A DNA stretch of 64,000 bases from Chromatiaceae bacterium (GTDB taxonomy: Bacteria > Pseudomonadota > Gammaproteobacteria > Chromatiales > Chromatiaceae), in contig JALWWO010000009.1 of the NCBI GenBank assembly GCA_027078745.1, positions 79,960 to 143,959 of the forward strand. The letters are read 5' to 3'. Below are positions 32,999 to 55,770 of the stretch, piece by piece. Position 1 is the first letter of the stretch, and every line of letters begins with the position of its first letter. The position numbers and the translations under genes are program-made. Below the pieces are notes generated by a model that saw only the letters and a program-made list of their open reading frames with translations, did no database searches and was not told where the DNA came from.

Positions 32999-33250
32999 CA
33001 GCGGATCCCTATCTTTCGATAGGGGCTGGACTATTCCTTCACCTGCGGTTCCCCACAGGGGAGGGCGTGTTGTGGATCTTCATCCACCCTAGTACTCCCT
33101 GGGCTGGGTGCCGGTAGGAGCCTATGAGTCTCTAGCCGGCGGCTTGGTTTCCCATTGACCGGACGGCGTCGGCCTAGGATCGAATCCCGTAGCGTTCACC
33201 GTGTGAGCCCTCTGTTTCCGACGGGAATCGCTTCCCGTGGCGACCGTTCG
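32999..33250 (-). other. Group I self-splicing intron in the ssrA T-loop
   Basis: Inserted between T59 and T60 of the T-loop. The 5' exon ends in U and the intron ends in G, as required. P1: exon UUCGAU pairs with GUCGGA (intron nt 29-34), giving the U.G wobble at the splice site. A 7-bp hairpin ACGGGAA/TTCCCGT lies between them. Core: R-like CTAGAGACTCATAGG (nt 116-130) and S-like AAGGAATAGTCC (nt 212-223); GACT/AGTC form P7. P8 is CCUGUGG-GGAA-CCGCAGG, and a GAAA-capped hairpin CCCTATC/GATAGGG is P9-like. No homing endonuclease frame fits in 252 nt. Confidence 0.88.
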
Positions 33251-33468
33251 ATCGAACCCGCGTCCGCAGGCCCTCTGCCTGAGGCTCTACATGCTTAGCC
33301 CAATCTATTTTCTTTAACCTTCCGTTGCCCGACGGGCAGGGCAAGCGGTCGGCGATTCCGAATTGGTTTTAGCAGCCCGAGTCCGGACCCCTCGGGCGGC
33401 GATCTCATGTGCAGTTACCCCTGAAATCCGCCCCCCATGAGCAAGGAGCGGTCAGAGGCTCGCCGGAC

Positions 33469-33501
33469 TTAGGCGGCGAGAGCGTAGTTGTCGTCGTTGG
33501 C
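33469..33501 (-). other. tmRNA tag reading frame
   Basis: Ten sense codons plus TAA encode ANDDNYALAA, counted from the resume codon GCC (33501-33499). The ALAA end is the ClpXP/ClpAP degron. It differs from the E. coli tag at one place (Asp for Glu at position 4). Confidence 0.93.
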
Positions 33502-33611
33502 AACTATTGGTGTGCGGATGGATTTACGAGGTATCCCGCACCTCGGCATGCACCCCAGGTTTCGCAACCCGCGTCGAAAGCCAGGTCGCCCCCAGATCAT
33601 AGGAATGAGAC

Positions 33612-44157: not shown

Positions 44158-47100
44158 CTATTCCTGAATCTGTTTCAGTGCTTGGAGCAGGGGATCGAGC
44201 TTGGACAGCACCCCTTGCAAGCGGGGTTCTAGGGCCGCGCGCTCCCCCTGCTTCAGGGCATCTTCCAGGGCACGAGCGGCTTCCTGCACTTCTTGGGCGC
44301 CGATCGTGCCCGCAGTGCTCTTGAGATCGTGCGCAAGGCGGCGGGCTTTTCTCGGTTCCTGCTCCAAGGCCGCTCGAAAGGCGGGCCCGAAATTCTCTTG
44401 GCTTTTGAGAAAGATCCCCAGCAATTTCCGATATAACTTCTCATTTCGGCCGGCGATTTGCATCCCCTGCTGCACATCTAGCCCGGGGATGGTCTCTAAA
44501 CAACGGAATTTGACTGCTGGTTGTTCCATGGTTTCTCCCTGCCTGTATTGCTTGGGTGGCAACCAGCGGGCGATGGTGGAAAACATCTGCGCTTCATTCA
44601 AAGGTTTGAGGATGTAATCGTTCATGCCCGCCGCCTTTGCCTGTTGCTGGTCACTGGGCAATACATTGGCGCTCATGGCGAGGATAGGCAGCTGCTGGAA
44701 TCTGCGTTGCTCTCGAATTCTCTTCGCGGTCTGGTAACCATCCAAGATGGGCATCTGAATATCCATGAGCACCAAATCAAACTCTGTTTGTGCCAACTGG
44801 GCCAGGGCCTCTTCTCCGTGTTGGGCCAGTTGTACCTGCGCACCGCGCCTGCGCAACAGCGCCAACGCCAATTCTTGATTGAGCAGATTGTCTTCCACCA
44901 GCAGAATCCGCACCCCATCCAGGCGGATGGCAGCCGATTCAGGTTGATCCACGGGTTCAGGCAGCCCAGCTGCTTCGCCTCGGGGGAAAACTAGGAGAAC
45001 TCGAAACTGAGAACCCCGATGCAAGGTGCTTGTTACCTGGATTTCCCCTCCCATGAGATCGACCAGCCGTTTGCAGATGACCAAGCCCAGACCGGTGCCC
45101 CCGTAGCGGCGGCTGGTGGAATCGTCCGCCTGACTGAAGGCTTGGAACAGCGCCCGCTGTTGGTCTTCGGTCATGCCGATGCCTGTATCCCGTAGGTTAA
45201 AGGCAATCCGAACCTGATCGGCCTCTGCAGCGAGTTGCTGCACCTGGAAGTGCACTTCTCCCGCGTTCGTGAATTTCACCGCATTGCCGCCCAAGTTGAT
45301 CAGGATCTGCCGCAGTCGCAGGGGATCGCCTCGCAAGACCTCAGGCAATTTGGGATCCACCTCGATGCGCAGCTGCAACCGTTTCTGTTCCGCGAGGGGC
45401 TGGAGCAAAGCGACAAAATCATCGATTACCTCCGACAACCGAAAATCGATCGCTTCCAGCTTAAGCTTCCCCGCCTCGATCTTGGAAAAATCCAAAATAT
45501 CATTGAGGATATCCAGCAGGGCCGTAGATGCACGGTGTACCTTTGCGATCAGCTGATTGCGCTCCTCGTCCTGATCGGTCTCCAGCGCCAGTTTGGACAT
45601 ACCGATGATGGCATTCATGGGCGTGCGGATCTCATGGCTCATATTAGCGAGGAAGGTAGACTTCGCTCGATTGGCAGACTCCGCCTGATCTCGGGCTTCC
45701 TGCAATCGCCGTTTGAGCTCATATTCTGCGGTGATATCTTCTTGCACCCAGAGTATGCCGGCGCTGAGGTCCTCTTTCTTAAGGGACTTTCCCAGGATCC
45801 GGCACTGAAACGAGGTGCCGTCTCCCCGCCGCACGCGGTGTTCCCCTCGGTAGATGCCGCCTGCCCGCAGCTCGGAATAAATCGCGCTTTCGATGGCGGT
45901 GTAGTCCTCCTCAGAACGGTAGAACTGTCGCGGAGAAAATCCCTGAATCTGCTCCCGCGACAGGCGAAACATCTGGCAGAAGGCTTCATTGCACCAAACG
46001 ATTTCCCATCGTCCCTTCTTTAAGCGAACATAGATGATGCCCAAGGGAATGGTGTTGAGCAGCACTTCCCGTTCGCGATGGGAACGTTCCAGGGCTTCCT
46101 GGGCTTCTCGTCGCGCACTGATGTCCAGGCTGTATTCGATGAAGCGTTCGATCTGCCCGTTCTCTTCCTGAATGGGGAAGGCATGGATTTCTGCGTAGTG
46201 AGGTTTGTTCTGCTCATAACGAACCTGTTCCACTACCACCGGTTTGCCCGTTTGCCGCAATCGTTGCAGAGGGCAGGGGGTTTCCGGACCGGCGCAGGGG
46301 GTGGTTTGGCAATAGCTAAGCTGGTAACAGGCAAGTCCATGAACATTTTGGTGCTGGCGCCTGGCAGCCTGATTAGCGATTTCCACCCGATGGGTTTGGG
46401 CGTTGATCACCATGAAGGGATGGCTGAACGCGTTGATGACTGTATGCAAGAATGCGTTGGATTTTTCCAAGGAACGGGCGATGGCGCGGCGGCGTTTCCG
46501 CTCCTGCAAGGCTTCGATCCCGAAACCCAGATCATCCACCAGACGTTCCAACAGCTGGATCAGGACGGCATTGAAGCGACCGGGCGTCCCTGCATAGAGC
46601 ACCAACAACCCCCAAACCGCTTGATAAACCCGAATCGGCAGGGCGATGACAGCCCGATAACCGCGCCGAAGGGCAGCTTCTCCCCAGGAACCGAGATCAG
46701 AATCCGCAGCGATGTCCTGGATAAAGGCGGTCTTGCCGGTCCGCAAGGCACGGCTTTCGGGACGATGGGCCCATGCATCCGTGTTCCTCTCAAAGCGATG
46801 CAGTGCGAGATCGCTTTCTGCATCCGTGCCCGCATGAGCCAAGGGTAGGATGCGCGGGGTTTCCTCCGTTTCCTTGCGCCCGATCCAGGCGAACCGAATG
46901 TCCGGCTGTTGCACGATCAATTGGCAGAGGTGATCGAACAGGGCGTGTTCGCTCTCCGCACGGATGAATTCATGGCGGGTTCTTGTGGAAAGCCAATAAG
47001 CATTTTTCAGATCTTCCAGGCTTTTCTCGACAGCGAGGTATTGGCTCACATCTCGCCCGATGACCAACAGCCCTTTGGGTCGGTGCGCGGCATCGAACAA

Positions 47101-47544
47101 GGGAATTTTCAACGTATCCAGCTGGATCAACTCGCCATCCGGCCCTTTGATCTGTTCGATGGCTCGCGCTACTTCCTTCCTCTCCCAGGTCTTCCGATCC
47201 GTCAGCTCACAGGTCAGAAAGGCTTCTCGATAGCAAGGATGGGTGAAATCGGCCAGTTCCGCATCCGTCTTGCCCCGATAATCCACGCCTTCTAGATGAA
47301 AGAGCTGGAGATCGGCAGGATTGGCTTCCAACCAGCGTCCTTGAGCATCCTTGAAGCAGATGATATCCGGGCTGTGCTGAAACAGGGCCTGCATCCAAAA
47401 CCGGTCGTCCTCATACTTTTCTCGGATTTCTCCCGTCGCGCGGGCAGATCGGCCATTCTCTCGGCGCAAGCGGCGGTTTTCCTGCCAGAGATACAGGATC
47501 AAAACGACGGCAACGCCGAGGATCAGGAGGAGAAAGGTGGTCAT
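44158..47544 (-). CDS. Hybrid sensor histidine kinase with PAS-GAF-PAS-PAS, receiver and Hpt domains
   Basis: From the ATG at 47544 the product has 1128 residues: one N-terminal membrane helix ([18 protein letters not shown]), PAS (about 50-170), GAF (about 190-345), PAS (about 365-480), PAS (about 490-610), HisKA with [10 protein letters not shown] (His637), HATPase_c with [22 protein letters not shown] (about 735-855), receiver with Asp928 ([13 protein letters not shown]) and Hpt with His1072 ([11 protein letters not shown]). The second PAS carries four cysteines (406, 412, 417, 424), which could bind a metal or a redox cluster. No output domain; the Hpt implies a separate response regulator. 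It follows the VWA gene by 51 bases, so it may belong to that operon. Confidence 0.92.
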
Positions 47545-47595
47545 GCTCAACTGCTGAGAGAAGATGGCTACCGGAAATCGGTCGGCACAGCTGAC

Positions 47596-48783
47596 TCATT
47601 CTCGTTTCATTCCGGTGCTGCCGATGATGATGGGTAATCGGTTCTGACTCGCGAAATCCCGCAGATCCCGCCGTTCCAGGGCAACCGCCATGAGATCGCC
47701 GAAGAGATCCGGTGTGCAGGCGAAGGCCGGAGAACCCAGGGCGGTGAACTGGGCGGCCATCTTGCGATCGAACCAAGGAGCGCCCTCATCCGACAGGGCC
47801 AGCAGCGTGATCAGATTGACGCCAGATTCTAAAAGCCGGTGGGCGGTCTGCAAGAGCTTCGCTTCCGAGCCCCCTTCGCAAAGATCACTGATGAGCACCA
47901 GATGGGTTTCCGCCGGCTGTTCCACCAGATTTTCGCAATAGGTCAAGGCTCGGGCGATGTCCGTTCCGCCGCCTAACTGAATGCCGAAGAGCACTTCCAC
48001 CGGATCTTGCAGGGATTCTGTCCAGTCCACTACAGCGGTATCGAAGAGCACCAAATGGGTGCGGAGGCTGGGGAAACTGGCGAGCACCGCCGCAAAGATA
48101 CTGCTGTAGATCACAGAAGCCCCCATGGAACCGGACTGATCCACACAGAGGATCAATGTGTTCATGCGCCGCTGCCGCCGGCCATGGCCCACGAGCCGTT
48201 CGGGAATGAGGGCGTTGTACTCGGGGCGGTAGGTCTTGAGGTTGCGCCGGATGGTGGCGTTCCAATCGATCTCATGCGGCCGAGGTCGGGGATTGCGCAC
48301 CGCCCGATTGCGGGCACCCCGCACCGCCTGTTCCATCGGTGGCCGGTGCTTGCGCATCAGTGCCTCCACCAACCTTTGCACCAGCATTCGGGCGTTCTGC
48401 TTGGCCCGATCCGGAATCAGATGTCGCAGGGCCAGGAGCTGGGCCACCAGCTCCACATCCGGTTGCACCGCCTCCAGAAAGGCGGGATCTTGTACCAGGG
48501 CCGCCAGATCCAATCGCTCCGTGGCATCCTTTTGAAGGATAGCCACCGCGCTGGCGGGGAAGAGCTTCTGGATCTCCCCCAACCAGCGGGCCGCTTGGGG
48601 CATGGACTGCCCACCGCCTCCAGCGCCCAGCGGCTGTGCGCGGTCGAAGCCGGGCTGATAGAGAGCCCCGAGGGCCTGATCCAAACGGGCGTCCTGTCCG
48701 GAAACCGGACCCAACTGCTGGGCATCCTGTCCGAGCAACAGCCGCCAACGCCGCTGCCGCTCCCGTTTTTTCAGGTTTTGCAT
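47596..48783 (-). CDS. VWA domain protein, last gene of the DUF5682 operon
   Basis: The 395-residue product has a charged N-terminal region with a Gly-rich stretch (GAGGGGQ, about residues 53-59), a helical part (about 60-170, with HLIPDRAKQNARMLVQRLVEAL), and a von Willebrand A domain (about 208-395) with the metal-site motif DQSGS at 215-219, GGGTDIARAL and LISDLCEGG. Such VWA proteins pair with MoxR ATPases, the metal site holding a client or a partner. Its start overlaps the DUF5682 gene by 13 bases. No membrane span. Confidence 0.85.
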   Translation of the reverse strand: MQNLKKRERQRRWRLLLGQDAQQLGPVSGQDARLDQALGALYQPGFDRAQPLGAGGGGQSMPQAARWLGEIQKLFPASAVAILQKDATERLDLAALVQDPAFLEAVQPDVELVAQLLALRHLIPDRAKQNARMLVQRLVEALMRKHRPPMEQAVRGARNRAVRNPRPRPHEIDWNATIRRNLKTYRPEYNALIPERLVGHGRRQRRMNTLILCVDQSGSMGASVIYSSIFAAVLASFPSLRTHLVLFDTAVVDWTESLQDPVEVLFGIQLGGGTDIARALTYCENLVEQPAETHLVLISDLCEGGSEAKLLQTAHRLLESGVNLITLLALSDEGAPWFDRKMAAQFTALGSPAFACTPDLFGDLMAVALERRDLRDFASQNRLPIIIGSTGMKRE

Positions 48784-51005
48784 GGTTCTATCCCCAGCAA
48801 TTGCCGCAGCTGAACGAGCGCCCGTTGCTGTAGGTCGGGATCGAACCGGCGGGCCGCTCGCACTTGCCGATCGCTGCCATGGCGTACCCGATCCCCCAGC
48901 AGGTGCAGTTCCTGGGGGCTGAAGCTGGAAAAAACCCGCCGCAGCAGGGGCAGCACCCGCAGAAAATCTTCCTCGGCCAGATCGCCGAGCCAGCGATCCA
49001 GGAAGCGGAACAAGCCGTCTTCATAAAGCAACAGCGTCGCCCCCTGGTACAGCAAACCCTCAATCCAAGCGGCGGCGTGCGGAGCATCGTTGCCCGAAGA
49101 GAGCGCCAATTGAAAGGCCCGAGCGAGGGCCTCCGCATCCAATCGGTTGAGATCATACAACCTGCGAGTGCACCGGCCCAGGATCACCGGATGAGCGGCT
49201 TCCTGGGCCACCACTTCCCCCAGGGCCTTCAACCATCGCTCGATGTCTTCCGGCCGCTCCCGCATGTGCAGGGCGCTATGCGCCTGATCCATGGCCTCCA
49301 GCATGGTATAGGCCGCTTCCTGATCCAGCAGCAGGCAGGCGGTCGCCAAACCGTTGGTGATACGGAGGATCATGCCCTCGATCACCGGTTCCAGCAGTTC
49401 CCCCCGGATGCTGCGCACGCTGCCATAGCGCTGGATCTGCACCAGGGTGAGCAAGGATTTCATGAGGTCTTGGAGATCCGCAGACAGGGCGGCGAGAGCG
49501 CGCAATTGGTCGGCGGCTTTGGGAAACAGCTCGGGCAGATCCGCCGCTTGCAGGTGGCTCAGCAGATCGGCAATGCCGGATACATTTTCTTCCGCCGCGA
49601 TGCGCGCCGCCAATCGCTGGCTCGCCGCCGCTTCGACCGTACTGCCCCAGGTGCTGGCATCGATCAGGGCGAGGGCGAATTCCGGTTGCCACTGCACCAC
49701 CCAGGATTCCTTAAAGGTGCCCAAGCCCGATTCCTCTAAGGGAGTACCCCAGGGGATGCCGAGGGCTTGCAACCGGTGGAACAGAATGGAGCGCTGCAAG
49801 CCCATGGGCTTGCGCAGATCCAAGGATAGGACTTGTTCCGCTTCCGAGCGGTGCAGGCGCAGCCGCCGGCTCTGGGCTTCCAGATCCTGTTCCAAAGGGA
49901 GCTGATGCTTGCCCGGAGGCAGCTTGCCCAGCCGGTTGGACACCACCAGCTGTTCTTGGATCAGGAACAGGGGTTCCCCCTGCCCCTGGGTCATGACCGA
50001 CTGGGCGGCCTCCAGGGTTTCCCGCAGGCCGGGCACGGGCTGGCCGCGCAGCCTAGCCAGGGCCAAGGCCAGGCGCACGCCCTCGATGACCTCGGCGCTG
50101 GAACAGAGGAAGCCTTCCCTTCGCAGCAATTGGGCGATGCGGCTCATCCAATCGATGACCAGGGTTTCCGTGCTGCTGCCCTGTTGCTGATGGCGGAACA
50201 GATGAGCATACCAGCCCGGGGACGGAATGCCTGCCCCGTAGCCACTCCCCTGACAGAAGCGGGCGTAGGTATAGGGCACCCAGGCCACCGCCACCCGCCG
50301 TTTTTTCAGGCCCTTGAGCAAGGCGTTGTCTTCCTTCACCTTGACCTTGGCGGCCAGGGCGGGCACATGCCAGGCACCGCAGACCACGGCGATGCGCCCG
50401 TAGGTCTTGCGCGCCTTCCGCAGCACCCGCCGCATCCAAGCTTCCCGCAGTAAGTCCTGCGTTTGGGTATGTTCGGGCAGGGCTTCCCGCAGGGCGCTCA
50501 TGGCTTCCCCGATGGCCTCGAACAATGCCAGCCCGTCGGTCAGGTGTTCCACCTGCCAATCCCACCAGCTTTCCCCATCCGAGTAGCCCGCCGCCTCCGC
50601 CAGCCGATCTAGCGGGGATTGGGTAGGCTGGGCTTCTTGCGCTTCAACTCCCGATTTCGCAACTTCCGCCGCGCGGCGTTCCAGCTCGATCCCCACCGGC
50701 AGATCCATCATTTCCAGGGCACAGCCGGTGCGCAAGGCGTAGTGCATGGCCTGCCATTCCGGGGAAAATTCCGCCCAGGGATAGAAAACCGCTTCCGCTG
50801 GCGATTTGGGATCGTAGACCAGTTGAGCTACCGGCGGCACCAAACCCGGATCACCGCAGCACTGCCAAGAATCCTGCAACTCCTGGGCACCCTCCAGCAG
50901 GATTGCTTCCGGTTGAATCTCTGCCAGCGCCCGCTTCAGGCTGCTGGCACAGCCCGGGCCATGATGGCGGATGCCTAACAGCCAAACCTGATCATCGATC
51001 TGCAT
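48771..51005 (-). CDS. DUF5682 family protein, possible EreA/TraB-like enzyme
   Basis: 744 residues. The first 230 show LLGIRHHGPGCASSLKRAL (GxxH, Gly11-His14), ILLEGA (Glu38), a middle LEMMDLP, LLREAWMRRVL near 185-195 and VVCGAWHVPALA (GAWH, 210-213). Two GxxH motifs, a following glutamate and an arginine/methionine helix are the marks of the EreA/ChaN/TraB/Tiki superfamily, so I infer an enzyme fold here. The remaining 500 residues are helical and rich in Leu, Ala and Gln, probably a protein-protein scaffold. It overlaps MoxR by one base (TAATG) and VWA by 13. Family name recalled, function unknown. Confidence 0.8.
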   Translation of the reverse strand: MQIDDQVWLLGIRHHGPGCASSLKRALAEIQPEAILLEGAQELQDSWQCCGDPGLVPPVAQLVYDPKSPAEAVFYPWAEFSPEWQAMHYALRTGCALEMMDLPVGIELERRAAEVAKSGVEAQEAQPTQSPLDRLAEAAGYSDGESWWDWQVEHLTDGLALFEAIGEAMSALREALPEHTQTQDLLREAWMRRVLRKARKTYGRIAVVCGAWHVPALAAKVKVKEDNALLKGLKKRRVAVAWVPYTYARFCQGSGYGAGIPSPGWYAHLFRHQQQGSSTETLVIDWMSRIAQLLRREGFLCSSAEVIEGVRLALALARLRGQPVPGLRETLEAAQSVMTQGQGEPLFLIQEQLVVSNRLGKLPPGKHQLPLEQDLEAQSRRLRLHRSEAEQVLSLDLRKPMGLQRSILFHRLQALGIPWGTPLEESGLGTFKESWVVQWQPEFALALIDASTWGSTVEAAASQRLAARIAAEENVSGIADLLSHLQAADLPELFPKAADQLRALAALSADLQDLMKSLLTLVQIQRYGSVRSIRGELLEPVIEGMILRITNGLATACLLLDQEAAYTMLEAMDQAHSALHMRERPEDIERWLKALGEVVAQEAAHPVILGRCTRRLYDLNRLDAEALARAFQLALSSGNDAPHAAAWIEGLLYQGATLLLYEDGLFRFLDRWLGDLAEEDFLRVLPLLRRVFSSFSPQELHLLGDRVRHGSDRQVRAARRFDPDLQQRALVQLRQLLGIEPCKT

Positions 51006-52081
51006 TACAGGATGGCCCGCAGGGCTTTTTCCAAAGCACGATCCTTAGGCCGGGTCTTGAGCACCCGATCCACATAATCCCGAAAGATTTCCCGATCCTC
51101 TGCTTCCCGCACGACCACCCCTTCCAGCCCGTCGGCGATCTGGGCCGCTGAGAGGGCACCCCCCTCGAAGTAAGCCGCGCTGTTCACCGCCTGATTGAGC
51201 ACAGAGATGGCTTCCGCGGGGCTGAGGGTGGCGGAGGGCTTTCGCAGCTTTTCCGTGCCCGCCTTGCCTGCCCGCAGCTCCCGAAACACCCGTACCACCC
51301 GCCGGATCTCTTCCGCCGTGTTGGGGGGCAGGGGCACTTGGTTTTCCTCCGCCATCTCCTGCACCCGATGTTGCACGATCTGAATTTCCGTCTCCCGATC
51401 GCTGGGGAGCTCCAAGCGCACCGTGTTGAAACGCCGGCTCAGGGCTTTGGAGAGGTCGTTGACCCCCTTGTCCTTATCGTTCGCCGTGGCGATGAGGTTG
51501 AAACCCCGCGCGGCCAAGACCACGGTGTTCAGCTCCGGCAAGGGCATCATCTTTTCGGACAAGATGGTGATCAGGGCATCCTGCACATCTGCGGGGATTC
51601 GGGTGAGTTCCTCGATCCGCGCGATCAGGCCTTCTTCCATGGCCCGATAGATGGGCGTGCGCACCACGGCTTCCAGATCCGTGCCCTTGCTCAGGCGGTG
51701 GGCATAATCCCATTCATAGAGGAGTTTTTCCTCGGAGGTGCCGGCGGTGCCCTGCACGAGGAGCCGGCTATTGCCCGAGATCCCCGCTGCCAGCAGTTCC
51801 GCCAGCAGAGATTTTCCCGTGCCCGGGGGACCATAGAGCAACAAGGCCCGGTCAGTGGTGAGGGTGGCGATGGCGACCTGCACTTCCCGATCTGCTCCGA
51901 AATATTTGCGGCGAATGATCGTTCCATTCGCTTCGCCCCCGAGGATGAACCGGAGCACCGCTTGGGGGGAGCGCTGCCAGCGGGGCGGCTTGGGATGGGC
52001 ATGCGCCGCATCCCAATCCTGAAGGGCGGCGAGTTCCTGGGCATACAAGACTTCGGCAGCGGGTTTGAGCACAGTAGTCAT
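51005..52081 (-). CDS. MoxR-type AAA+ ATPase of the DUF5682 operon
   Basis: 358 residues: leader (1-45), then AAA+ with Walker A GPPGTGKS at 84-91, a Walker B position reading ARIEELTRIP (156-159 IEEL, with Glu where Asp is usual), QDALITILSEK, sensor 1 LIATAND at 196-202 and the arginine-finger region SRRFNTVRLELP. The C-terminal lid (about 290-358) follows. MoxR ATPases remodel or load metal into partner proteins together with VWA proteins. The ATG overlaps the DUF5691 stop by 4 bases (ATGA). Cytoplasmic. Confidence 0.9.
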   Translation of the reverse strand: MTTVLKPAAEVLYAQELAALQDWDAAHAHPKPPRWQRSPQAVLRFILGGEANGTIIRRKYFGADREVQVAIATLTTDRALLLYGPPGTGKSLLAELLAAGISGNSRLLVQGTAGTSEEKLLYEWDYAHRLSKGTDLEAVVRTPIYRAMEEGLIARIEELTRIPADVQDALITILSEKMMPLPELNTVVLAARGFNLIATANDKDKGVNDLSKALSRRFNTVRLELPSDRETEIQIVQHRVQEMAEENQVPLPPNTAEEIRRVVRVFRELRAGKAGTEKLRKPSATLSPAEAISVLNQAVNSAAYFEGGALSAAQIADGLEGVVVREAEDREIFRDYVDRVLKTRPKDRALEKALRAIL

Positions 52082-53592
52082 GGTGATTTCCTGATCAAGG
52101 GTTCCCTAGCGCAGGGACTGTCCAGGGCTTTTCGGAGTTCCAGCAGTTCCATCCAGTGTTTCAGCGGTCCGCCTACCTCGGCATGCTGGGGACATCTGCG
52201 TTGCGCTTCCGCCAGGGCGGTGGGGATGTGGAGCTGGGCAATCAGCAGAAAAGCCAGTTGCAGCGACCTGGGATGCTTCGGGCTGCGGAGCGCTCGGCAC
52301 AAGCTGGGCATCAGATCAGCAGTTAGCTGCGCATCACACTCAATCCCCCTCTGGAAGATCAACGCCCAGATCTCCGGCGCTTTGAGCCAAGGCTCCCCTA
52401 AGGTTTTCAGCATGTTGGGAATCTGCTGGGGATGGCTCTGGGCGAACAGCGCTGCCAATCGCGCACCAGTCATCGTTTTGGGTGGATCAGGATAGGCCAG
52501 CAGCCAGGCTTCCAGGGCAGCCAGGGATTCATGCACCAGGGCTGCTTCCAGCAGGAAATAGCAGAGTTCCACCCCGAAATCGCTCCGCGCCAGCAACGCA
52601 TAGGTCTTTTTTAGGGAAAGGCCCAGGTGCTGCGCCAGGGCTTCCGGACCCACCAAGACCAGCAGTTGCCCCAGGCGCAGAACGGCTTTTGCCAGGCCGA
52701 GCTTGGCTTCATCGAGGGGCAGCACGCCCAATTCCGGTTGATCCTGTTCCGGCAAGCGGATTTCTAGCCGGTGCCGGAGGCGGCCCCGCTTCTGCAAGCA
52801 CTCGGACAACAGGGCCAAGCGCCCTGCCTGACCTTGCTCCGCGTGCCAGGCGCACAGCATCCGCAGGGCTGCCCTTCGCACGCGGTCGCTGCGATCCGAA
52901 CGGACACTTTCCAACCAGGTGCGAGCTTGAGGAAAACCCTTCAGAAGACGCATCCAGGGCAGCAGGCGCAGCCGCGCTTCCCCATTCCCCTGCTTCCATT
53001 GGGTCTGGATGAACTCGAGGGCCTGTTTCGGATCGGCTTGAAAGATCGCCTGCAACCGTTCGGACTGGCAGCGCGGGGGCAATTGGTCCAAAGATTGAAC
53101 GGACAGGGACAAGAGATAGGGTGTCCAATCCTCGTTGAGGGCGACCAACCAGCGCCCCCGCGGGCTGAGGGTCTGGGCGATGAGCGCTCGCATCAGGGGT
53201 TCGCCGGATTCCAAGTTCAAGATCATCGGCAAGATGGAATCCGGCAGGGCATACCTGCTGTTATGGAGCACAGCGAGCACCGCCGCGCGGGGGATCGCTT
53301 CTTCTCGGAGCAAAGCGCAAATCGTTGGTACTAATGCCGAGGGCGGCGGATGAGCGCCTGCTTCCGGCACCTCGGGCAGAGGATCGAACTGATCCGGTGC
53401 CGGCAATTGGCTCAGTTGCTCGGAAAAACAACTGAGGCTCAGGGCATCCAGAAAACAGCGCGCCCGATCTGCCCGACGATCCGCCAGCAGGGCTTGAAGC
53501 GCTGGCGGGAGCTGAGAAAAAAAATCCCCCTGTTGATTGAGTCCCCGCAGGAGGAAAGCGCTCAGAATCCGGGGGTTAAAAGCGGTCGCCAT
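52078..53592 (-). CDS. DUF5691-type protein, helical repeat scaffold
   Basis: 504 residues from the ATG at 53592 (MATAFNPRILSAFLLRGLNQ). Almost all alpha-helical and leucine-rich, with HEAT-like segments such as RVRRAALRMLCAWHAEQGQAG and ALMRALIAQTLSPRGRW. No signal peptide, no membrane span and no catalytic motif. The position between a SWIM protein and a MoxR ATPase, and general size, fit the DUF5691 family that accompanies them elsewhere (recalled, not searched). Overlaps the SWIM gene by 17 bases and MoxR by 4. Probably an adaptor for the ATPase. Confidence 0.75.
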   Translation of the reverse strand: MATAFNPRILSAFLLRGLNQQGDFFSQLPPALQALLADRRADRARCFLDALSLSCFSEQLSQLPAPDQFDPLPEVPEAGAHPPPSALVPTICALLREEAIPRAAVLAVLHNSRYALPDSILPMILNLESGEPLMRALIAQTLSPRGRWLVALNEDWTPYLLSLSVQSLDQLPPRCQSERLQAIFQADPKQALEFIQTQWKQGNGEARLRLLPWMRLLKGFPQARTWLESVRSDRSDRVRRAALRMLCAWHAEQGQAGRLALLSECLQKRGRLRHRLEIRLPEQDQPELGVLPLDEAKLGLAKAVLRLGQLLVLVGPEALAQHLGLSLKKTYALLARSDFGVELCYFLLEAALVHESLAALEAWLLAYPDPPKTMTGARLAALFAQSHPQQIPNMLKTLGEPWLKAPEIWALIFQRGIECDAQLTADLMPSLCRALRSPKHPRSLQLAFLLIAQLHIPTALAEAQRRCPQHAEVGGPLKHWMELLELRKALDSPCAREPLIRKSP

Positions 53593-54916
53593 CGTCCACT
53601 TCGTCCAAATCCAGGGCAAACCACTGATCCTCCCGCCAGACGGCCCAGGGACGGGCGAAGCGACCGTCATAGGTGAGGAAGCAATGGCTGGGTTCCGGAC
53701 CGGTGCAGGCCAAGAGCTGCCAGCGCGGGGCGTAGTTGGGCTCTACCAGCACCAAGCAACCCTGCTGATCTGCCAGGGCCAAGCGATCTTCCTTGAACGC
53801 GGGCCGCAGATCCCGTACCAAAATGGGCCATTCCAGCAAGAAGGGCAAGCGGATGCGCTGTTCCTGGGCGCTGCGCAGGGCGGGTTCCCAATGAGGATAG
53901 GCAATCTCCGTCAAGCGCTGGGGTGAAAAGGGCAGACAGGAAAAGGCCTCTGAACGCACCACCGTGGCCCGCAGGGGCAGATAGTCCGAATGGAAATAGA
54001 CCGAAGCTTGAATCTGAGTGCCCGGCTGATAGCCCTGGGACAGGGCGTCGGGATTGAAATCCGTGGCGAAACTCAGTTCCTGAGCGATCCGCCGAGACTG
54101 GGGATCGCACAGCCAAACTGTCCGGCTGTATTGTCCGGATTCGTAGCGGGTGTGCTGATTGAGGACAAACCAATGGGCCTGAACGGGGGGCTTGCTCAGG
54201 ATGGCTTCTCGCTTTCGGTACCAACCGATCTGCGCGCGGATTTCTTCCACCAAGCCGGGCTCCAGGCGATCCCGCTGCTCATAGGCGGAGAGGAGGAGAT
54301 GCAGCCGCGCTAAAGCGAACAGCACCCGATCGGCCCAATCCTCCCCTCGATGGAGTTGCCGGCGGATCCAGCCGAGCTGATGGGCCAGCCCCCGCGCCTG
54401 GGCATCTATGAGCCGTCGTTCCATGCGTTCCCAAACCTGGGGTTGCTTGGCGGTGTCCGCCAGCCCCAAGCGGACCAGGTCTTCCAGAAAGCGCCGCAGC
54501 TCAGCGATGCCTTGGGCGACCTTCTGTTCTCGGGCCTGGGCGCGGCGGGCTTGGGCTTTGGGGTCTTTGACCGGGCCCTTTGGTTTCTGCGCAGCCGCAT
54601 CCCGCTGGCGCAGCCAGGCGGCGCACCGGTCTGGCCGAGTGGCGGGCTGCACCGCATCCGGTTCCTGCGCCGCCAGGATCAGCAGGGCAAGGGCATGTTT
54701 GCAAGGGGATTGGCGGACCGGGCAGGAACAGCGGTAGGCGGGGCCCTGCAAATCGATGCAGAGTTCATAAGTGCGCGTGCCCTGGACCTGCGCCCAGAGC
54801 GCCCGATCATCCGCCCCGATTCCTGAAAAGCGTTGCGGCTTGGCCAGCTTCTTGGCCCGTGCGAAGGTACCCGCATCCGGTGCCAGTGCCTCGACTTGGG
54901 CCAAGGATAGCTGCAT
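53576..54916 (-). CDS. SWIM zinc-finger protein
   Basis: 446 residues with the SWIM zinc motif CSCPVRQSPCKH (C63, C65, C72, H74), a fold that binds DNA or protein. Then a charged Lys/Arg/Ala linker (about 108-130) and a helical-plus-beta C-terminal region with WFVLNQHTRYESGQYSRTVW. First cytoplasmic member of the operon. It overlaps the Sel1 gene by one base (TAATG) and DUF5691 by 17. No catalytic domain found. Confidence 0.85.
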   Translation of the reverse strand: MQLSLAQVEALAPDAGTFARAKKLAKPQRFSGIGADDRALWAQVQGTRTYELCIDLQGPAYRCSCPVRQSPCKHALALLILAAQEPDAVQPATRPDRCAAWLRQRDAAAQKPKGPVKDPKAQARRAQAREQKVAQGIAELRRFLEDLVRLGLADTAKQPQVWERMERRLIDAQARGLAHQLGWIRRQLHRGEDWADRVLFALARLHLLLSAYEQRDRLEPGLVEEIRAQIGWYRKREAILSKPPVQAHWFVLNQHTRYESGQYSRTVWLCDPQSRRIAQELSFATDFNPDALSQGYQPGTQIQASVYFHSDYLPLRATVVRSEAFSCLPFSPQRLTEIAYPHWEPALRSAQEQRIRLPFLLEWPILVRDLRPAFKEDRLALADQQGCLVLVEPNYAPRWQLLACTGPEPSHCFLTYDGRFARPWAVWREDQWFALDLDEVDDGDRF

Positions 54917-55656
54917 TACCAGGCCTCAATCTTGCGCAACAGGGCCTGGGCTTCTTCATGCCCTTGCAGCGAGGCTTTTTCCAGCAGTTGGCTCGCGCGG
55001 TCGATGTCCCGCGGTACGCCGTTTCCTCGGAAGTATTTCAAAGCGAGCTGATATTGGGCTTCCGCATTGCCCGCTTCCGCAGCCTTGGTATACCAGCGAA
55101 TGGCCGCCTGTAGATCTCGCTTCGTGCCTAACCCTCGATCATAGAGCCGCGCTAGGCCGAGCTCCGCAGGCACATAGCCCTTTTCTGCTGCCGCTTTGTA
55201 GAGTCGAAAAGCTTCGGAAAGGTTTCTGGGCACCACCTGCCCGGCCTCGTAGAGTGCGGCCAGATGGTATTGAGCTTGGGTATGCCCCTTTTTGGCAGCC
55301 CGTTCGAACAGCAGGGCCGCACCGCGGGGGTTCTTCTGGGTGCCCTTGCCCTCGAGCAGTAGCTCGCCCAAGCGGTTCTCCGCATCGCTGTTGCCCTGTC
55401 GGGCGCTCTCCGTGTACCAATAGATGGCTTTTGGCAAGTCCTGCTTGAAGCCCAACCCCTGCTCATAGCAGCGGGCTACCCGCTCCCGAGCGACCGGATC
55501 GCCCTGTTCCGCATAGTCCAGGAACAATAGGCAGGCCCGGGCCTGATAGCCCTGTTGCAAAAGGCGTTGCGCCCGTTGCAAATCTTCCTCGGACACCTGG
55601 GCAGCTTGAGCGCTCAGGCTGAAGAACAGAAGAAGAAAGAAGGATCGGAATGCCAT
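54916..55656 (-). CDS. Exported Sel1-repeat protein heading the DUF5682 operon
   Basis: From the ATG at 55656 the product has 246 residues: a signal peptide (MAFRSFFLLLFFSLSAQAAQ, residues 1-20) and five Sel1/TPR-like repeats (about 50-235), e.g. AEAGNAEAQYQLALKYFRGNGV. Sel1 repeats bind partner proteins. Exported to the periplasm while the rest of the operon is cytoplasmic, which is odd. A TTG start 5 codons earlier is possible. Its TAA overlaps the SWIM ATG. leuS is 114 bases upstream on the same strand. Confidence 0.85.
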   Translation of the reverse strand: MAFRSFFLLLFFSLSAQAAQVSEEDLQRAQRLLQQGYQARACLLFLDYAEQGDPVARERVARCYEQGLGFKQDLPKAIYWYTESARQGNSDAENRLGELLLEGKGTQKNPRGAALLFERAAKKGHTQAQYHLAALYEAGQVVPRNLSEAFRLYKAAAEKGYVPAELGLARLYDRGLGTKRDLQAAIRWYTKAAEAGNAEAQYQLALKYFRGNGVPRDIDRASQLLEKASLQGHEEAQALLRKIEAW

Positions 55657-55770
55657 GTGCTTTTCCCCCAAGTCGGTGGATTCTTAAGGAGATCGGATTC
55701 CAGATCATAGCACCGCAAGGGCGATTTTCGATCCCTGAGCTCAGGGGAAAAGCGAGGGGATCGCCGGCCC

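Follow-up and report, generated by a model that had tools for sequence, protein, structure and literature searches.

The 64,000-nucleotide stretch of Chromatiaceae DNA analysed here (the window; all coordinates are positions in it) carries six overlapping genes on the minus strand, five of which form a conserved module built around a MoxR ATPase and a VWA protein. In transcription order, the set begins with a Sel1-repeat protein (55656-54916; Pfam Sel1, 1.6e-45) and continues with a SWIM protein of 446 amino acids (54916-53576; Pfam SWIM, 1.4e-05), a DUF5691 protein (53592-52078; Pfam DUF5691, 5.9e-31, with a weak HEAT_2 match at 0.13), a MoxR AAA+ ATPase of the YehL type (52081-51005; Pfam AAA_5, 5.1e-34), a DUF5682 protein (51005-48771; Pfam DUF5682, 1.2e-226) and a CoxE-type VWA protein with a metal ion-dependent adhesion site (MIDAS) motif (48783-47596; Pfam VWA_CoxE, 1.5e-52). 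All six open reading frames (ORFs) lie where an earlier reading of this DNA, the original prediction, had placed them, and Pfam backs the six names given there. Two starts were taken inside longer ORFs: the Sel1 ATG lies within a TTG ORF that begins at 55671, and the DUF5691 start is an internal ATG, the longest ORF (from 53670) giving a 95-base overlap with SWIM. The ORF coordinates yield junction overlaps of 1, 17, 4, 1 and 13 bases, exactly as predicted. The further claim that this coupling implies a stoichiometric complex is not supported, as short gene overlaps are common in bacteria and by themselves are no proof of a complex. The feature that rises above chance is the order of five genes kept in relatives, rather than the short overlaps.

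To find relatives, named bacterial and archaeal genomes were scanned with an alignment of 24 DUF5682 sequences, which returned at least 578. The best 80 of these, hence those nearest to the window's type, were combined with E. coli and the window itself into 82 loci and scored with profiles built from the window proteins. The exact arrangement SWIM-DUF5691-MoxR-DUF5682-VWA was found in 59 of the 82 loci, and MoxR, DUF5682 and VWA follow one another in that order in 70. Where a fetched locus had room on both sides, all five genes occur in order, on one strand and within 12 kb in 56 of 62 cases; the linkage that the original prediction expected in other genomes is thus borne out for five genes. 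In the six exceptions (L014, L024, L046, L051, L052 and L073), DUF5682 stands alone, stands with VWA only, or has partners that have moved. Going by the organism names in the record titles, we take the full cassettes to come from nine phyla: Pseudomonadota, Cyanobacteriota, Bacteroidota, Planctomycetota, Acidobacteriota, Chloroflexota, Actinomycetota, Verrucomicrobiota and Desulfobacterota. In two loci (L020 and L037) SWIM and DUF5691 are fused into one ORF. Additionally, mirror-tree correlations across 60 loci were 0.73-0.86 for all ten protein pairs, compared with maxima of 0.17-0.36 over 500 permutations; such co-varying distances point to a shared history, not to contact.

The Sel1 gene does not share this pattern. 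It is present in only 1 of 89 related loci, as is LeuS, and by eye its product begins with an apparent signal peptide. Therefore, the module comprises five genes, and Sel1 is a local neighbour outside it. The proposal of a single six-gene system holds for SWIM, DUF5691, MoxR, DUF5682 and VWA, which make up a conserved, ordered and co-varying YehL-type module, and fails for Sel1. The operon thereby gains a fixed parts list.

E. coli K-12 carries the core of this module as yehL-yehM-yehP-yehQ, a relative that the original prediction did not name and that was identified in this analysis. The window MoxR protein is 39% identical to YehL over 344 amino acids, DUF5682 is 27% identical to YehM, and VWA is 37% identical to YehP. 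YehQ, represented by a five-sequence profile, scored 47.2 against the SWIM family, in an alignment of 151 columns that reaches past the finger, while four decoys reached at most 19.6; YehQ and the SWIM protein are therefore related beyond the finger, a relationship that is new here. Because E. coli shares the core in this form, we class the window MoxR as YehL-type, an assignment that draws on comparison with YehL alone among the seven subfamilies and on its YehM- and YehP-type neighbours. MoxR proteins are divided into seven named subfamilies, of which YehL is one, and E. coli K-12 has two MoxR proteins, YehL among them (PMC3893208). The two operons also differ. E. coli yehLMPQ has no DUF5691, its SWIM gene is last rather than first, and DUF4132 and WGR genes lie upstream. 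Near the E. coli core are the DUF4132-family genes yehH (a pseudogene) and yehI, together with the WGR protein YehF, WGR being a DNA-linked domain.

This difference extends to other genomes. Among 299 genomes of the window's phylum, DUF5682 occurs in 12 and DUF5691 exceeds its cut-off in six, namely all six genomes with a strong DUF5682 match (658-865 bits), and there within 2 kb of it. In the remaining six DUF5682 genomes, DUF5691 is missing and the DUF5682 copies are weaker matches of the YehM-like type (329-346 bits). Two DUF5691 matches below the cut-off sit in genomes without DUF5682. One genome, G196, carries both kinds of module (L086 and L109), the YehM-type one with three consecutive DUF4132 genes. 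DUF4132 adjoins the core in seven of eight fetched YehM-type loci, the eighth (L108) being cut by a contig end; it lies upstream of MoxR in L103-L106, L109 and L110 and downstream of DUF5682 in L107. It was recognised by Pfam in L105, L107, L109 and L110 and by our own profile in the other YehM-type loci. The SWIM gene follows VWA in six of these eight. At DUF5691-type loci, DUF4132 was found in 7 of 80, presumably all Chitinophagales judging by their names, just downstream of the cassette and once inside it (L069). These distributions suggest that the constant core is MoxR-DUF5682-VWA plus SWIM. We infer that DUF5691 and DUF4132 are clade-specific helical partners, which suggests that the scaffold is a different protein in each of the two clades.

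The residues expected of working components are intact throughout the module. The window MoxR protein has the motifs GPPGTGKS, a Walker B motif with EE, and LSRRF. Walker A is present in all 73 MoxR proteins and an arginine-finger-like LxRRF in 72, the window's included. In the relatives (L003-L083) Walker A mostly reads GxPGTAKS, with the last glycine replaced by alanine, while the window and a few others have GxPGTGKS. The MIDAS of the VWA protein is similarly conserved, with DxSxS in 76 of 76 proteins and GGT[DNE] in 72. The SWIM finger, CxCxnCxH, is C63-x-C65-x6-C72-x-H74 in the window, and 64 of 65 proteins keep its predicted zinc ligands. Behind the finger come a helical middle and a C-terminal region (residues about 236-431) modelled as two OB folds; model matches comprised a list of OB-fold proteins for residues 236-431 and ZSWIM8 for residues 1-111. 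With moderate confidence, we describe the SWIM protein as a finger followed by two predicted OB folds of the RPA/HIN kind, which is new here. It would thus resemble RPA70 and HIN proteins in its tandem OB region and ZSWIM8 in its finger. DUF5691 is likely a helical-repeat scaffold.

DUF5682 was modelled with AlphaFold2 at a predicted local distance difference test score of 91.4. The model shows a head of strands and helices spanning about 260 residues, followed by a long helical body with repeats at residues about 400-740; the VIA rows for this protein, modelled as a whole, are confined to residues 368-744. Across 39 sequences from both clades, the head has 19 invariant residues: R13, H14, H15, E38, P58, P76, S81, P82, E83, D101, L102, W148, E153, R173, R187, E188, M191, G210 and H213. 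Of these, H14/H15, E38, D101 and G210-H213 map to predicted strands or to their ends. Compared with the ChaN profile (PF04187), the head scored 36.2 over 181 collinear columns (E 5.6e-4 for one comparison, probability 29.7%), pairing GIRHH with GExH, LEG with LEM, REAxM with WDxxM and GAWH with GSGH. The maximum among 75 column-shuffled and three reversed alignments was 22.2, and the natural decoys HisP, SurE, DUF5691, SWIM and DUF4132 scored 16.1-18.5. As yardsticks, the related pairs TraB-ChaN and EreA-ChaN scored 41.9 and 61.5. At the level of profiles, the collinear alignment of the DUF5682 head with ChaN therefore beats every null that was run, and the head carries an invariant His/Glu/Arg set; both findings are new here. 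The enzyme-like head in the original prediction gains support from both the invariant residues and the ChaN match.

Several observations speak against this assignment. The ChaN match is weak when YehM-type rows are left out (E 0.021), the score against TraB (24.9) barely exceeds the nulls, and that against EreA (21.5) falls inside them. The profile method itself failed on the related pair EreA-TraB (17.8), and a search of the head against PDB sequences returned nothing. Additionally, the glutamate of the E-x-H motif is absent: residue 12 is isoleucine in the window and residue 13 is arginine throughout, while H14/H15, E38 and H213 are kept. In RRSP, a protease of the TIKI superfamily, two histidines and two glutamates are essential (PMC6254334). 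Because the His/Glu/His residues are retained without the E-x-H glutamate, we call the head ChaN/TIKI-like and not a member with the full set. Residues 1-260 of DUF5682 are thus likely a ChaN/TIKI-like head and a predicted hydrolase, with moderate confidence in the fold. DUF5682 resembles the superfamily of ChaN, erythromycin esterase and TIKI-TraB in the collinearity of its head with ChaN, and differs in lacking this glutamate, in its long helical-repeat body and in its place within a MoxR-VWA operon.

The absent glutamate, which both ChaN and RRSP have, also fits a different reading, in which MoxR and VWA would serve many proteins as a general stress or DNA-damage chaperone and DUF5682 would be a substrate-binding scaffold with a degenerate, inactive head. 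The helical-repeat body of DUF5682 suits such a role, and Deinococcus DUF4132 and WGR proteins are reported to rise on depletion of DdrO (PMC8533742). A LexA-like site with one mismatch (L003:3450-3465) ends 10 bases before E. coli yehF, although the count of such sites is near chance. Nineteen residues kept invariant across clades, in heads only 22-30% identical to the window's, would however be unusual for a dead enzyme, and we consider a general chaperone quite unlikely.

We instead favour, tentatively and at somewhat less than an even chance, a reading in which the products of the five genes make up a single remodelling machine driven by ATP, with DUF5682, a predicted ChaN/TIKI-like hydrolase, as its likely client and working part. 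In known pairs, the VWA protein grips a substrate peptide via the MIDAS and ATP hydrolysis by MoxR reshapes the substrate (PMC7159879); in CbbQO, the complex is CbbQ6O1 and changes to the MIDAS mostly abolish Rubisco activation (PMC5437159). Because it is fixed between MoxR and VWA, DUF5682 is the natural client, and its place between both genes is consistent with the client or effector role proposed for it originally. By analogy with CbbQO, a MoxR hexamer would hydrolyse ATP, the VWA MIDAS site would grip DUF5682, and an ATP-driven change of shape would render the DUF5682 head active or release it from an inhibited state. Peptide or ester hydrolysis is the leading guess for its reaction, from the superfamily. 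The cue may come through the SWIM-OB protein, held by the DUF5691 scaffold, and would most probably be nucleic acid that is damaged or single-stranded. Large DUF4132 proteins, some of them carrying WGR, would act as scaffold or sensor in the E. coli-type clade. Of these steps, the nucleic-acid cue is the least secure; it draws on the predicted OB folds, on the occurrence of WGR in the partner clade and on the Deinococcus DdrO report.

CbbQ-CbbO, NorQ-NorD and RavA-ViaA likewise combine a MoxR-type ATPase with a MIDAS-bearing VWA partner. They belong to other subfamilies, and the present operon differs in having the presumed client and further proteins as constant members. A bolder proposal, which we regard as doubtful, is that the module represents a fifth kind of MoxR-vWA system: a nucleic-acid-gated switch with a SWIM/tandem-OB sensor on a helical scaffold, in which DUF5682 would be a ChaN/TIKI-like protease or esterase unlocked by the MoxR-VWA motor, and DUF5691 and DUF4132-WGR proteins would be interchangeable scaffold or sensor modules of the two clades. 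Such a system would have been overlooked despite its presence in E. coli K-12. In a literature search that left most subscription papers outside, titles and abstracts yielded no functional study of DUF5682, DUF5691, the yeh genes or YehL with MoxR, and DUF5682 and DUF5691 went unnamed. The head superfamily, residue set, OB region and parts list turn a nearly untouched E. coli operon into testable biochemistry.

The VWA_CoxE match of the window VWA protein raises another possibility, that of a maturation chaperone resembling CoxD-CoxE. It would load a metal or molybdenum cofactor into some enzyme whose gene lies elsewhere, and DUF5682 would be a carrier or adaptor, not a hydrolase. In E. coli, the WGR and DUF4132 genes yehF, yehH and yehI, which we take to be MolR-type, are close to the operon. 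MolR is named for molybdate use (PMC8533742), CoxD-CoxE is tied to metal-cluster insertion (PMC7159879), and yehM is among the genes mutated in copper-adapted E. coli (PMC12409786). While moaA was over its cut-off in all seven genomes with a DUF5691-type cassette, it was also over it in 7 of 14 control genomes and so discriminates little. Furthermore, molybdate genes are reported not to have changed along with the Deinococcus DUF4132/WGR genes (PMC8533742), the 25 Pfam families met most often in the 113 immediate neighbours include no cofactor enzyme, and the invariant head residues suit an active site. We judge cofactor insertion unlikely.

The module could also be an anti-phage or conflict system like the ternary MoxR-vWA systems, which share its core logic (PMC7159879); DUF5682 would then be the effector. 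Those systems likewise join MoxR and vWA to a further conserved component (VMAP, iSTAND, FtsH or beta-propeller); here the third component is DUF5682 and the VWA protein consists of the VWA domain alone by Pfam, without a variable effector domain. None of the six window proteins matches VMAP, iSTAND, FtsH or beta-propeller Pfam models over the cut-off, and the bpMoxR model stays below its own. YehL, YehM, YehP, SWIM, TIKI and TraB are absent from the main text of the ternary-system paper (PMC7159879). The patchy distribution of DUF5682 and its presence on 36 of 72,556 plasmid records would suit a conflict role, as would partial PADLOC matches of SWIM residues 14-106 to the candidate PDC-S62 (1.7e-07) and of the MoxR P-loop region to IetA (6.2e-09). 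Against such a role, yehM is present in 5284 of 5426 E. coli genomes, and the best PADLOC matches of DUF5691, DUF5682 and VWA do not pass 0.05. Only 1 of 50,697 phage records carries a relative, and two peptide patterns typical of the window's type found none in viral contigs. PADLOC families at E 1e-15 or better are few among the 113 neighbours (largest family four members; raw counts). The commonest Pfam families there are DUF4132 and HATPase_c (five each) and AraC-type HTH and AAA_21 (four each), a profile that, on raw counts only, is that of an accessory module rather than a defence island. The anti-invader role suggested originally thus finds little support in a gene that is near-core in E. 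coli, nearly missing from viruses and poor in PADLOC neighbours, and we consider it improbable.

Within the window's own family, DUF5682 exceeds 300 bits in 2 of 23 genomes, the window's and G302, which has the full cassette; one further match is marginal at 27 bits. The genes yehL and yehM are reported lost from S. sonnei lineages 2 and 3 (PMC12795559). The annotation of one E. coli strain splits yehM in two and places an IS5 family transposase gene under the match (NZ_CP137737.1 1867916-1871259), and that of a Hymenobacter radiodurans plasmid splits DUF5682 in three (NZ_CP037921.1 86167-88318). The sole phage record is a 30% DUF5682 match on an unannotated faecal contig that is possibly no phage (MT835988.1 10662-12758). 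One of the few defence-like neighbours, a protein with nSTAND3 and an Mrr-type nuclease, adjoins the Rhodoferax cassette (L072:3259-5535), and the Gynuella cassette is closely preceded, on the same strand, by a gene with an ATP-dependent DNA ligase domain (L005:4504-5946).

Upstream of the six genes, the translation of the next gene resembles leucyl-tRNA synthetase by eye. A consensus scan placed a promoter-like site, TCGAAA-16-TATGAT with TG before the second hexamer, directly ahead of Sel1 (55731-55704, minus strand); two sites in the region compare with 1.1 expected, near chance, so the Sel1 site is weak. Downstream, a hybrid histidine kinase with PAS, GAF, receiver and Hpt domains by Pfam (44158-47550, minus strand) starts 46 bases past the VWA stop on the same strand, while in the relative L111 a PAS kinase lies upstream of the cassette instead. 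Lastly, a tmRNA at 33218-33593 (minus strand), missed by ARAGORN, was matched by Rfam at 176 bits.
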